Shown piece after piece: positions 18,373 through 36,621 of a DNA stretch of 38,696 nucleotides. Every line of letters starts with the position of its first letter. Positions within the stretch are counted from its first letter, which is position 1. This DNA is from Scytonema sp. RU_4_4 (GTDB taxonomy: Bacteria > Cyanobacteriota > Cyanobacteriia > Cyanobacteriales > Nostocaceae): assembly GCA_012031965.1 (NCBI GenBank), contig JAAUSC010000047.1, positions 1 through 38,696 on the forward strand. The letters run 5' to 3'. Under the pieces are notes generated by a model. That model saw nothing but the letters and a program-made list of their open reading frames with translations. It made no database searches and had not been told where the DNA came from. A program made the translations under genes and the position numbers.

Positions 18373-19289
18373 ATGTTGCCAGTCATTTATTCCGACGAGT
18401 TTCTGGATCACAAGACTGGATCTTTCCATCCAGAGAAACCAGAACGTCTCTTGGCGATCGCCACCGCCTTAAAACAAGCTGCGTTTGCACAACACATTGA
18501 ATGGCGTTTACCCACTCCACCCCAAAAGCGCCATATGATGTCTGTGTTGGAACAAGCACACACTCAGCGATACATCAAAAAAGTCCAGGAAATTGCTCTT
18601 GCTGGCGGCGGTTATTTGGATGGAGATACGCCTGTTTCTGTGCGTAGTTATGATGTTGCTTTGTTGGCGGTGAGTGCTTGGTTGGATGGAGTTGATGCTG
18701 TGCTTACTACTGATAAACCAGCTTTTGTGTTGGCGCGTCCACCAGGACATCATGCTGAAAGTAATATGGGGATGGGGTTTTGCTTGTTTTCCAATGCGCG
18801 ATCGCGGCTTTCTATGCTCTACAACTACCGGAGATTAACCGTGTCGCCATCCTTGACTGGGACGTACATCACGGTAATGGTACGCAGGCAATCGTAGAAA
18901 AGTACCCACAAATTGCCTACTGTTCTCTGCATCAGTACCCCTGCTACCCAGGAACTGGACATCATACAGAGCAAGGTTTCCATAAGAATGTGTTAAATTT
19001 GCCTTTTCCTCCTGGCAGTGATATCAAAATATACCAATCTGTTTTTGAAAAAAAGGTTGTGCCCTTTTTATCTAGTTTTCAGCCGGATTTACTTATTGTG
19101 AGTGCAGGTTACGACGCCAACGCGGATGATCCGTTGGCTAGTATAAATTTGCAACCGCAAGATTATGGTTTATTCACAGACTATTGTCTGGGAATAACTC
19201 GTAAAATACTGTTTGGCTTGGAAGGCGGTTACGATTTTGACGCACTTTCCCAGTCGGTTTTAGCAACAATTGAGCGCTGTATCGCCTGA
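18373..19289 (+). pseudogene. Histone-deacetylase-superfamily deacylase, frameshifted
   Basis: Together two overlapping frames encode a complete Zn-dependent deacylase of the HDAC/acetoin-utilisation/acetylpolyamine amidohydrolase superfamily (about 305 residues). Frame 1 gives the N-terminus from the ATG at 18373 to RPPGHHAE and GMGFCLFSN. Frame 2 continues AIAAFYALQ, DWDVHHGNGTQ with the metal-binding Asp/His, VSAGYDANADDP and the GLEGGYD end. The switch is at about 18797, directly before a HIP1 octamer (18798-18805). One added base there restores N-A-A-I-A-A, so a single-base deletion is the simplest reading. All catalytic motifs survive, suggesting a recent change or a sequencing error. 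The substrate is unknown; bacterial members act on acetylated small molecules or proteins. Confidence 0.85.
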
Positions 19290-30646: not shown

Positions 30647-31557
30647 TCACTCATCACTATCTTGATTTTTGGGAGTCAATCGCCAGGTCGTGATTTTCTC
30701 AATATCTACAGAGAGTTGTTCGAGATTTTCTCCTAAATCTTTTTGTAGTTTCTGAGTCAGTGTAATGGGAAAATTTAAATCGATGTCTTGAGTTTGTACT
30801 AGCCTAACGAGTTCTACAAATGATACTTTCACTGTTTTTCGATCATAAGAAGAAAGCTTGAAATGTGAGCTTTCTGATAGATTCTGAGCAAGCATCGCGT
30901 TTTTGATTCGCTCTTGTAAATGTGCGAATTCTGAGTCTAACAGTTTCCACTGTTGCTCAAGCTCTGCATATCTTGCGTTCAGTGATGTTAAGTTTTCTGT
31001 TGCAGGCTCTGGATAAATTTCTTTATTTAATTCTATCAAACGTTGATGGACTTGAGCAAGATAAATGCAGTCTAGGTAAGCATACTCTATTTGTTCTTCT
31101 GTGAGTGGTCGCCTTCCCCAGTCACTATTTTGTTCTTGTTTATCTATATTCTTAAAATGACAAAGTTCTGTCGCGAGAGTTTTTAATTGGTAGTTAGGCA
31201 ATGGTAAAGCATAATAGGGAATTTTTTTTGCTATTTCTAAAGTACAAGTGATATTTTTTGCTTGTTTATTACCGAGATATTTCACATCAAAACTAGCATT
31301 ATGAAAACTTTTTCAATGTGGGAATTGACCATGATTTTGTCAATCAACTCAGCCACAACGTCAGGATGGTTGAGTACATCTAAAACATAAGTGCGATCGC
31401 CACTTAAATCTGTTGGCTCGTCTAATACCTGAATTAACGACAGTCTAGGATTACGACTTTTGTATTCTGCGATTTCTGTATCAATCCACAAAATCCTCGC
31501 TTGAGTATATTCAGCAATAAGAGAACGGATTTCGCTGGCTGAAGTTAAATATGGCAT
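30647..31557 (-). pseudogene. 3'-5' exonuclease (RNase D-like DEDD fold), frameshifted
   Basis: Two frames together give one DEDDy-type exonuclease of about 300 residues. The upstream frame begins at an ATG (31557), reading MPYLTSASEIRSLIAEY, then ILWIDTEIAEY (motif I, Asp/Glu) and ends at VEKVF-like sequence. The downstream frame continues DVKYLGNKQAKN, PLPNYQLKTLATELC and EEQIEYAYLDCIYLAQVH (motif III, Tyr-x3-Asp). Adding one C at about 31303 turns VFIMLVLM-stop into VFHNASFDVKYL, which restores motif II. So the gene lost one base, or this is a sequence error. A C-terminal extension of about 110 residues with a helical, charged sequence is family-atypical or a nucleic-acid contact region. 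It would trim RNA or DNA 3' ends. Confidence 0.8.
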
Positions 31558-31789
31558 GAGGTGATATTTCCAACAAAAATGACCAAGGGCAATGACAGCG
31601 CTTATTTTTATAATTAGACCACAAATCTTGAAAAATGAACCGCACCCTTCACGCGGATGGACACAGATAAAATACGACGCTCTCACAATTTATTTAGGAT
31701 TGCCATAGATCATGACACAAACGTGTGTTTTCACGGGATGTGGGCTACAACGTGAAATAATGCCTTGACTTGGTACAGGTTGTCGTCTG

Positions 31790-34640: not shown

Positions 34641-35711
34641 TTAACTCACTGGAATAGGTTCACCACCAGACAGAACTATGGGAAAATGATGGGTGTTAGG
34701 AGCATGCATTGCCTGTAGCCCAAGATTAGCTCGATTGAGCAAATCTGCTTCTGTTCTAATCACTGCGCCTCGACTATCTAAAAGGGACTGATTGAAGTTA
34801 AATCCATTTAAATTAAACGCCATCACGCATATACCCAACGCAGCGAACCATAAACCGACTGTTGGTAAAGCGGCTAAAAGGAGATGGAATGCACGGTGAT
34901 TTTGACTACCAAAAGAGGGAATCAGCAAGCGACCCAGGAAACCATAATGACCTGCTAAAAAGCTGTAGGTCGTTTTCGTTTGACCAAGCTTATATCCTGC
35001 TTCTGGAGGTTCATTTTCGTTAGTTTGTCGAAAGAGTGTTGAGCTAACTAATGAACCGTGCAAAGAACTCAAGAGTGCGCCGCCAAAAACTCCTGCAACT
35101 CCTAACATATGAAAGGGATGCATAAGGATATTGTGGTCTGCTTGGAATGCCATCATAAAATGGAAAGTACCTGCAATACCCAAAGGTAGCCCGTCAGAAA
35201 AACTACCTTGACCAATAGGATAAATCAGTAAAACTGCTGTTGCTGCCATAGCAGGTGCAGAGAAAGCAACAGCAATCCAAGGACGCGAACCGAGACGATA
35301 GCTCAATTCCCAAAGTCGTCCTAGATAACACCAAATCCCAATGAGAAAATGCAGTACTATCAGTTGATAGGGACCACCGTTGTAGAGCCACTCATCAAGG
35401 GAAGCAGCTTCCCAAATTGGATAAAAGTGCAAACCAATAGCAGCTGAAGTTGGCACAACAGCCGCTGTGATTAAATTGTTACCGTCCATCAAAGAACCCA
35501 TGATTGGCTCTCTAATGCCTTCCATATCTACACCAGGAGCCATAACATAAGCCAGGATGAAGCAAGTGACAGCAACAAGCAAGGTGGGAATCATGAGGAC
35601 ACCAAACCAGCCAATGTAGAGACGATTTTCAGTACTGGTTATCCACTCGCAGAAAATATCCCACAATCTCGATAAATCGAATTCCTTTCGACGCCAAACA
35701 GTGGTATTCAT
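34641..35711 (-). CDS. psbA: Divergent photosystem II D1 protein lacking several Mn-cluster ligands (rogue/sentinel D1 type)
   Basis: A 356-residue D1 homologue. The five-helix framework is kept, with [47 protein letters not shown] and [21 protein letters not shown]. Numbering here runs 3-4 above canonical D1. Kept are TyrZ (Tyr164, canonical 161), its partner His193 (190), the chlorophyll ligand His201 (198), the iron ligands His218 (215) and His276 (272), Asp173 (170) and His336 (332). Changed are canonical Glu189 to Asp192, Glu333 to Ala337, Asp342 to Val346, Ala344 to Ser348 and Gln/Glu130 to Leu133. The C-terminus ends GGEPIPVS. Loss of carboxylate ligands implies a PSII that cannot assemble a normal oxygen-evolving cluster. 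The Gln-Asp pair reported for chlorophyll f synthase is absent. The ATG at 35711 has GGAG 7 nt upstream; a longer TTG frame to 35774 is unlikely. Confidence 0.93.
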
Positions 35712-36264
35712 AGTATCTCCGTCCTCTTTTGAAGAGAATACTCGGAATTCTGATAAAAAGATTCTGAAACTCAAGAACTCACAGTTGTATTTTTCAGAAC
35801 CTATTATTGGTTTTTAAGTGTTAGATTTAGCAGTCTGAACGCGTTTTTGCTGCGGACATTACAGACTATTAAATTTCAGAATTTGTCCGAGTACTTTAAT
35901 TATAGAACAATACAATTCAGTGAAGTCTCAAATCGGCTCAATCGTTACGGGGCAAAGGTTTGATACAGGGGGATGTCTGACGACAAGCCGCTTTGCGTCT
36001 ACGCCCTATGCTGTTACCGTTACAGTCGTGCAACGTCTGGCAACAAGCGGCTACGGTCAATGAAAAACAATCAATATTATATAGATAATCCTATTTACAA
36101 ACCTGACAGCGCTGAACAAGGCTTTTCATCTGATTCTTATTTTAATTTCATTTTATTTGTCAATTTCTCAACTCTCTCTCATTAAGTCATCATATCTACC
36201 TCAGTTGACGGCTGCAATCTATTAATTATGAACAGTCAAACTGATTTTTCAGGGAGTTGATACA
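35712..36264. other. Upstream region of the divergent psbA and the small secreted-protein gene
   Basis: A divergent gap of 553 bp. On the minus strand a TATAAT-like hexamer (plus ATTATA 35899-35904) could be the psbA -10 box with a leader of nearly 190 nt, but no well-spaced -35 is seen. At about 35945-36060 are GC-rich repeat fragments (AAGCGGCTACGG, AAGCCGCTTTGCG). A 70-codon open frame at 35973-36185 has no protein-like character. A ribosome site GGGAG stands 8 nt before the ATG at 36265. Confidence 0.4.
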
Positions 36265-36621
36265 ATGAAACGGATATTTATTGGTAGTTTATCTTGCTTG
36301 CTTCTGTACGTTGCTGCTGCGCCTGCTGTTCGTGCTGAAATGGTCAATTCTACAGTATCAAATAATCAGACCAATACTCCTATTTCTCGCAGTCTCACAC
36401 CTAATGAACTGGTGACTTTTGCGATGAGAGGACAATTCAAAGAACAGGGTATTCCTAGTAACAATCTCCTACTTTCTGCCTATGCCTCTGGTACAGTAAC
36501 ACCAGAATCATTAATTAAGGCTGGCATTGCAGCAGGTAGAGTATCGCCTAATACTCTGAATGACCGAGGGTATTTGAATACTGTCGCTGACAAACTTCAA
36601 CGGCTGAACCAGCAGAACTAA
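36265..36621 (+). CDS. Small secreted hypothetical protein
   Basis: 118 residues. A clear Sec signal peptide (basic MKR, hydrophobic IFIGSLSCLLLYVAAAP, cleavage after VRA before residue 25) predicts export to the periplasm or beyond. The mature part of about 94 residues starts Asn/Thr/Ser-rich and continues with SLTPNELVTFAMRGQFKEQG, a helix-rich pattern, and TVTPESLIKAGIAAGRVSP. No cysteines remain after cleavage. I do not recognise the family. GGGAG is 8 nt upstream of the ATG. The gene is divergent from the psbA variant across a 553-bp gap, so shared control is possible but unproven. Confidence 0.8.
   Translation: MKRIFIGSLSCLLLYVAAAPAVRAEMVNSTVSNNQTNTPISRSLTPNELVTFAMRGQFKEQGIPSNNLLLSAYASGTVTPESLIKAGIAAGRVSPNTLNDRGYLNTVADKLQRLNQQN

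Follow-up and report, generated by a model that had tools for sequence, protein, structure and literature searches.

What does a photosystem II D1 protein do once it has lost ligands of the Mn4CaO5 cluster? The question is raised by a psbA gene in Scytonema sp. RU_4_4, which lies in the 38,696-nucleotide stretch of contig JAAUSC010000047.1 that was analysed here as a whole (the window). A preliminary description of the gene, made by eye from its letters, had proposed a D1 variant of the rogue or sentinel kind. The features discussed below were as follows.

34641..35711, minus strand: group 2 (rogue/sentinel) psbA, encoding a 356-aa D1 without the E189, E333 and D342 ligands and the LDLA site (from frame, profile, alignment and tree)
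35717..35720, minus strand: GGAG, seen by eye and ending five bases 5' of the ATG; from the familiar motif we take it to be the probable ribosome-binding site of psbA
35722..35900, minus strand: predicted structured 5' leader (fold prediction with MFE -46.6 kcal/mol and z -4.9)
35899..35904, minus strand: TATAAT, a probable -10 promoter element just before the leader, kept in G000, G001 and G006
36265..36621, plus strand: 118-aa ORF, upstream and divergent, also present beside the orthologue in G001 (94%) and G006 (85%)

The window gene and its product

The minus-strand frame was uninterrupted between its ATG (35711) and its stop codon (34641). Its product matched the NCBIfam psbA model TIGR01151 at 575 bits, just under the 596-bit cut-off, and it also matched Pfam Photo_RC. 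In the gene's own genome, which was 96.6% complete in 400 contigs and had two short contig-end psbA pieces that were left unclassed, we found one copy of this type of D1, two full standard D1 genes (about 67% identity to the window D1), a D2 gene (L004) and nifH.

Residues were numbered on an alignment to a standard D1 from the same genome. The alignment confirmed that TyrZ (Tyr161), His190, Asp170 and His332 were kept, as the preliminary description had stated, and showed that His337, His118, His198, His215, His252 and His272 were retained as well; the retention of His337 and the minus strand were points added to the earlier account. The claimed changes E189D, E333A, D342V and A344S were all found. 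An S264G change (own residue 268), which had been put forward with doubt, proved to be real and stood alongside F265S, E244T, N181H and D61E, and the indel suspected near the QB region was a single extra residue after His252. The sequence IVLS occupied the place where the LDLA processing motif would stand. The full Mn4CaO5 ligand set of standard D1 proteins (groups 3 and 4) was not present in the window D1. Position 130 was Leu, as described, and positions 127 and 128 were Leu-Gly; the Gln127-Asp128 pair of ChlF was absent.

The divergent 118-aa ORF was the sole conserved one of eight neighbours compared with G001 and G006, and it had no Pfam match. Elsewhere in the window, two genes were split over two overlapping frames, each by a frameshift or an assembly error: an RNase D-like gene at 30647-31686 (Pfam PF01612 in both pieces) and a deacetylase-like gene, recognised by eye, at 18373-19289.

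Family placement and conservation across group 2

The main tree was built from 67 D1 proteins, with D2 omitted because of its very long branch; a 68-row tree that included D2 was also built. The 67-row tree was split into ChlF (4 rows, 100/99), standard D1 including far-red D1 (26 rows, 98/90) and an atypical clade (37 rows, 100/98). The window D1 was placed within this last, ligand-less group 2 clade, beside its same-genus orthologues in G001 and G006 and inside nested clades of 16 rows (96/83) and 19 rows (99/93). Forcing the window D1 and the two orthologues into standard D1 cost 66 log-likelihood units (AU p=1.3e-4), and forcing them into ChlF cost 45 (AU p=7.6e-4). The phylogeny against standard, rogue and ChlF groups that had been suggested earlier did not place the protein inside the standard clade, and the rogue/sentinel assignment was borne out by the 37-row clade and the AU rejections. 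The earlier view that a ChlF role was unlikely also held; that role was rejected on the residues, the separate clade and the AU test. Among the at least 80 IMG/VR loci (best of 600), which stood outside the class counts, identities were 62-68%, no closer than those of standard D1s.

Cardona 2016 (PMC4773611), in the portion available, describes group 2 as rogue or sentinel D1 proteins with missing ligands and with E170 or D170, which puts Asp170 of the window D1 within the known range. The window protein belongs to a known type, here in a new genome, and it was correctly spotted.

Across 74 distinct group 2 proteins, Tyr161, His190, His118, Asn298 and His337 were invariant (74/74). The remaining pigment and iron ligands and His332 were retained in most of them (H198 in 67, H215 in 72, H272 in 71 and H332 in 65), D170 was present in 20, and F265, E244 and S264 were found in 17, 9 and 6, respectively. 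E333 was kept in one protein and D342 in none, counts that are partly a matter of definition because both residues served to sort the classes. None of the 74 carried the full Mn4CaO5 ligand set. In the standard D1 proteins, all of these residues were invariant (73/73). Across group 2, the donor-side pair is strictly held, and the metal site and the QB/bicarbonate site have been let go. Our own reading of the 74 of 74 is that the TyrZ-His190 pair may be what defines group 2. In six group 2 D1s (L228 and L235-L239, family f32), Ser198 replaced His198, the ligand of the P_D1 chlorophyll.

At the C terminus, A344 was kept in many group 2 rows, D342 in none. Six group 2 proteins had no residue beyond position 344, and the G006 orthologue stopped at 341. 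The missing tail would fit a C terminus that no longer needs processing.

The orthologues in the two same-genus genomes (G001 and G006) were 92% and 91% identical to the window D1, the G006 copy ending early. The three pairs among these genes gave dN/dS values of 0.116, 0.127 and 0.151, and nine group 2 pairs gave 0.08-0.21; a tenth pair gave no estimate. The window gene is under purifying selection, and the low dN/dS values indicate that neither it nor the group 2 genes are decaying.

Upstream sites, hydrogenase genes and the leader

A direct repeat, TCACAAnTTCCTCA, was found 5' of psbA in 11 of the 19 members of the window's clade, and in the Nostoc members of the clade the conserved direct repeat was CCTCACAAGTTCCTCAAATTCTT. 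The upstream region of the window gene had no site of the TCACAAnTTCCTCA type (score -7, null maximum 10). Within the 19-row clade, one change was enough to account for the distribution of the site, and the eight siteless rows formed one subclade (94/60). Because these rows form one subclade and one change suffices, a single loss of the site is the simplest reading; three close relatives outside the tree (L221, L224 and L225) also were without the site and could add changes. By eye, a different conserved stretch (approximately GATTGCAAAGATATTTGAC) preceded the sentinel psbA in L012, L015, L047, L049 and L221; these genomes were Fischerella-like, plus one other, and all were without the hox-type site.

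A strict pattern, YYTCAYAANTTCCTCAWA, matched exactly at 83 sites, spread over 16 of 20 genomes, and the reversed control had 0. Calothrix sp. NIES-3974 (G025) carried 19 of the 83 sites, the window's own genome carried 5 (0 in the window), and G001 and G006 carried 0. The sequence TCTCACAAATTCCTCAAA occurred 13 times among the 19 NIES-3974 sites, perhaps in a dispersed repeat, and sites with it were excluded from the matrix described below. Three of the 83 sites preceded a sentinel psbA. Neighbouring genes were inspected for 19 of the 83 sites, and they included hoxE and the hox subunit following it, a hydrogenase protease paired with either HypA or acetate-CoA ligase, PFOR, PEP synthase, 6-phosphofructokinase and universal stress proteins; further genes (a release-factor-like protein, a Uma2 protein, a P-type ATPase and unknowns) showed no clear theme. 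In the window's own genome, the sites were at hoxE (L310), at protease-hypA (L309), at PEP synthase (L307), at a release-factor-like gene (L308) and 1.3 kb before an HlyD-like gene (L306); PFOR was not among these.

A matrix was then derived from 35 non-psbA sites. Scores of at least 25 bits were reached by 15 of the 82 group 2 upstreams, representing 14 distinct genes, and by none of the 73 standard upstreams. The test is not fully independent because the core of the matrix came from the psbA-site pattern. Scores above the null maximum were found in 18 of the 82 group 2 upstreams (the other 64 not exceeding it), in 0 of 73 standard upstreams and in 3 of 4 ChlF upstreams, where the null was 600 shuffles of two-base blocks, not a strict dinucleotide shuffle. 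The strong matches came from Nostoc/Calothrix, Pleurocapsales and several Leptolyngbya-like genomes, and the group 2 count is inflated by close relatives. With an earlier matrix seeded from psbA sites, the far-red D1 L202, which was classed as standard, scored 19.7.

Gene order gave a similar indication at a few loci. Structural hox genes lay within 6 kb of 3 of 64 group 2 loci versus 0 of 53 standard loci (Fisher p=0.25). Under random placement with a 27-kb target, the probability of at least three hox-linked loci was 0.0026, a rough value with target and genome sizes assumed. In the case of Calothrix NIES-3974 (L043), the sentinel psbA was followed about 0.3 kb on by hoxE and then by hoxF; this hoxE (L043:7386-7925) was only 57% identical to the hoxE of the window's genome, and the match was flagged with one TGA. 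In Leptolyngbya sp. Heron Island J (L051), the order was hoxU-hoxY-hoxH-protease-hypA-hypB-psbA-small ORF-hypF, with a near-match of the site before the sentinel psbA and with hoxE and hoxF further up behind another site (L324). The small ORF 3' of the sentinel psbA was also present in G228 and G322. In Atlanticothrix silvestris (L037), psbA was located between a divergent PFOR gene and a convergent hoxH, and the site was in the gap shared with PFOR. HoxF, HoxY and HoxH were named by order and similarity, their NCBIfam matches being below the cut-offs. PEP synthase was found within 6 kb of two more group 2 loci (L038 and L332), and one standard locus (L072) had a 96-residue, 33% match to PEP synthase. 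The window gene itself was not near hox. Since the orthologue is present in G001 and G006, which have no hoxE, hox cannot be required. Taken together, the promoter sites and neighbours of the relatives hint at a connection with hydrogenase and fermentation genes.

A candidate regulator was encoded beside a site in G020. It was a 943-residue protein with an N-terminal receiver and an OmpR-type DNA-binding domain, and with further receiver, Hpt, PAS and GAF domains, and a similar protein was found at a similar place in G384. The first 240 residues had relatives of 71-86% identity in 12 of the 16 other genomes searched, among them the window's own genome (73%). Genes adjoining chlF in G014, G034 and G025 were 58-61% identical to the receiver/DNA-binding part of the regulator, where the name RfpB denotes the position beside chlF, not a model match. 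This likeness agrees with the presence of a sister repeat in ChlF upstreams. T-rich motifs at chlF have already been published, according to the available text of PMC12924786, which cites Antonaru 2025.

The window gene is preceded by the structured leader instead. The leader folded far better than shuffled versions (z -4.9), and in the predicted fold its 5' end pairs with a stretch before the ribosome-binding site. The leader (about 190 nt) was compared in three sequences (G000, G001 and G006) and was 86-87% identical within the genus (93% in one 45-base piece) though the gene dS was 0.28-0.34. This long stem was also predicted in the G006 leader but not in the G001 leader, which had about 60 extra bases. 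Rfam gave two weak matches for the leader, both far below the gathering scores. A dispersed repeat was ruled out, as the only matches besides the psbA copies of G000, G001 and G006 were scraps of 19-39 bases in 8 genomes, with E values of 0.017 or weaker. RNA-level control of the window gene is a guess from the conservation and predicted fold of the leader.

Possible roles and known systems

The most likely explanation, and in our judgement a probable one, is that the sentinel D1 would take the place of normal D1 in photosystem II during darkness, micro-oxic conditions or fermentation. With His118, His198, His215, His272 and the Tyr161-His190 pair kept, the centre should still separate charge and may oxidise TyrZ. 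With E189, E333, D342 and LDLA changed, it presumably could not hold a Mn cluster and would make no O2, and with the acceptor side changed at Ser264, Phe265 and Glu244, it would pass electrons to QB poorly. Such a protein might hold the photosystem II place, or use another donor, without oxygenating a cell that is running O2-sensitive hydrogenase, PFOR or nitrogenase. Ancestrally in the clade, an OmpR/RfpB-like response regulator probably induced the sentinel psbA together with hox, PFOR and PEP synthase; the window lineage would have lost the site and now appears to bear the structured leader.

In favour of this explanation are the 37-row clade, the AU rejections, the group 2 residue pattern, the purifying selection, the matrix sites and the hox-adjacent loci. 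Against it stand the window gene, which has no site and is not near hox, the siteless L221, L224 and L225, and the 3/64 versus 0/53 comparison, which was not significant (p=0.25). As reported in the portion of PMC9640542 available, Cyanothece PsbA4 has no LDLA and was seen in the dark, and a Synechocystis strain given PsbA4 as its sole D1 was non-photosynthetic. A broader proposal, which we advance tentatively and consider possible rather than probable, is that the sentinel D1 was at root part of an anoxic hydrogen and fermentation metabolism. A photosystem II without water oxidation would have been co-ordered with Hox and PFOR by an RfpB-like regulator, light still driving electrons from a non-water donor or through TyrZ chemistry while hydrogenase works; links to nitrogenase would have arisen by secondary recruitment, and the window lineage would have been rewired by its RNA leader.

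The preliminary description had also noted that such proteins may protect nitrogenase or act at night. A protein that serves mainly in this way, by shutting down O2 evolution at night or in cells that fix N2, was first proposed for Cyanothece, and we regard it as unlikely here. The own genome has nifH (466 bits), and among 388 genomes of the class, NifH was over the cut-off in 25 of 38 group 2 carriers versus 89 of 350 others (Fisher p=1.8e-6). The carrier set comprised the 38 residue-checked genomes scoring 655 bits or more, plus two of family f14 below that score; four checked f49 carriers were uncounted, and weak group 2 copies may be missed because the survey scored about five candidates per genome. 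Thirteen of the 38 carriers had no NifH over the cut-off, one of them (G400) having an interrupted nifH piece, and this genome may fix N2. In many genomes of the window's own family (f1), the nifH match broke off about 140 residues in, as though an inserted element interrupted the gene. Within seven families (147 genomes; f1, families without NifH and families without both classes being omitted), 19 carriers with NifH were seen versus 13.9 expected (CMH, OR 3.1, p=0.027), and much of the overall enrichment may be shared ancestry.

Individual genomes also pointed both ways. Downstream of a second, distinct sentinel psbA in G006, and on its strand, lay an HTH-PBP regulator, nifH and an N-terminal fragment of NifE (L213:9242-14406, G006:C88), but the same-genus genomes G002-G005 had nifH and no orthologue of the window gene. 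In the Cyanothece work (PMC9640542, available portion), the effects of deleting the sentinel gene psbA4 appeared under N2-fixing conditions and were only modest: without added nitrogen, the mutant showed slightly faster growth and faster charge recombination than the wild type. Together with promoter sites that indicate hydrogenase and fermentation genes, these results leave modest overall support for the nitrogenase claim, and a nitrogenase role of the window protein is doubtful.

Less likely still is a ChlF-like, light-driven enzyme on the D1 scaffold, that is, a photo-oxidoreductase of unspecified substrate and not a silent placeholder. The strict retention of TyrZ, His190 and His118, the high retention of His198, His215 and His272, the loss of the oxygen-evolving complex (OEC) ligands and S264, and the strong selection on group 2 genes would suit an enzyme, as would the related repeat in ChlF upstreams and the regulator part shared with chlF-adjacent genes; a suggestion of enzymatic function is also cited in the available text of PMC9640542. 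Yet the window D1 has no Gln-Asp pair and belongs to a clade separate from ChlF, and its S264 and F265 are changed, whereas ChlF rows keep F265 in 4 of 4 and S264 in 3 of 4. We consider it very improbable that a weak or altered Mn cluster persists with some water oxidation: D170, H332 and H337 are present in the window protein, but E189, E333, D342 and the A344 end are lost, and the Cyanothece homologue made Synechocystis cells non-photosynthetic in the part of PMC9640542 noted above. A decaying psbA copy or an assembly error is hardly credible, for although the G006 copy stops short at FPI, where a TAG is followed by unrelated sequence, and some other window ORFs look split, the frame of the window gene is intact, orthologues occur across many genera and the dN/dS values of the nine pairs contradict decay.

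The link of the relatives to hox and PFOR is the lead worth following. In a literature search of mostly non-subscription papers, no title or abstract opening among the papers listed connected hydrogenase, hox or fermentation to a sentinel or rogue D1. The available text of PMC5061849 places a Geitlerinema group 2 gene near ntcA, psbN and psbH, and both sentinel-D1 and hydrogenase/fermentation terms occur in it. If true, the shared promoter site and the clusters with hox and PFOR would shift the purpose of sentinel D1 toward dark anoxic energy metabolism, with bearing on photobiological hydrogen and on the means by which an oxygenic cell stops producing O2. Testable strains can be named (Calothrix sp. 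NIES-3974, Atlanticothrix silvestris and Leptolyngbya sp. Heron Island J), as can a candidate regulator family.

The closest known system is the group 2 PsbA4 of Cyanothece sp. ATCC 51142, which has likewise lost the OEC ligands, kept TyrZ and no LDLA. The same description applies to the sentinel D1 of Crocosphaera watsonii WH 8501 (L059), which is in the same clade; there, residue 170 is Glu and the protein ends at residue 344, whereas the window D1 has Asp170, Gly264, Ser265, Ser344 and an 8-residue tail. ChlF (group 1, super-rogue) is similarly a D1 paralogue without OEC ligands and with TyrZ kept, and a related repeat occurs in relatives of the window gene. Unlike ChlF, the window D1 has no QD pair, keeps His332, His337 and Asn298, has lost S264 and F265, and falls in a separate clade. 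The D1' (group 3, microaerobic) and standard D1 (group 4) proteins share about 67% identity and the same pigment and iron ligands with the window D1, but all 73 of those sampled retain every Mn4CaO5 ligand and S264. Finally, the hoxEFUYH and PFOR cluster of Lyngbya aestuarii (PMC3858816) resembles the loci described here in having PFOR beside hox and in its dark anaerobic use; psbA goes unmentioned in the main text of that paper, whereas a sentinel psbA is present in L043, L051 and L037.
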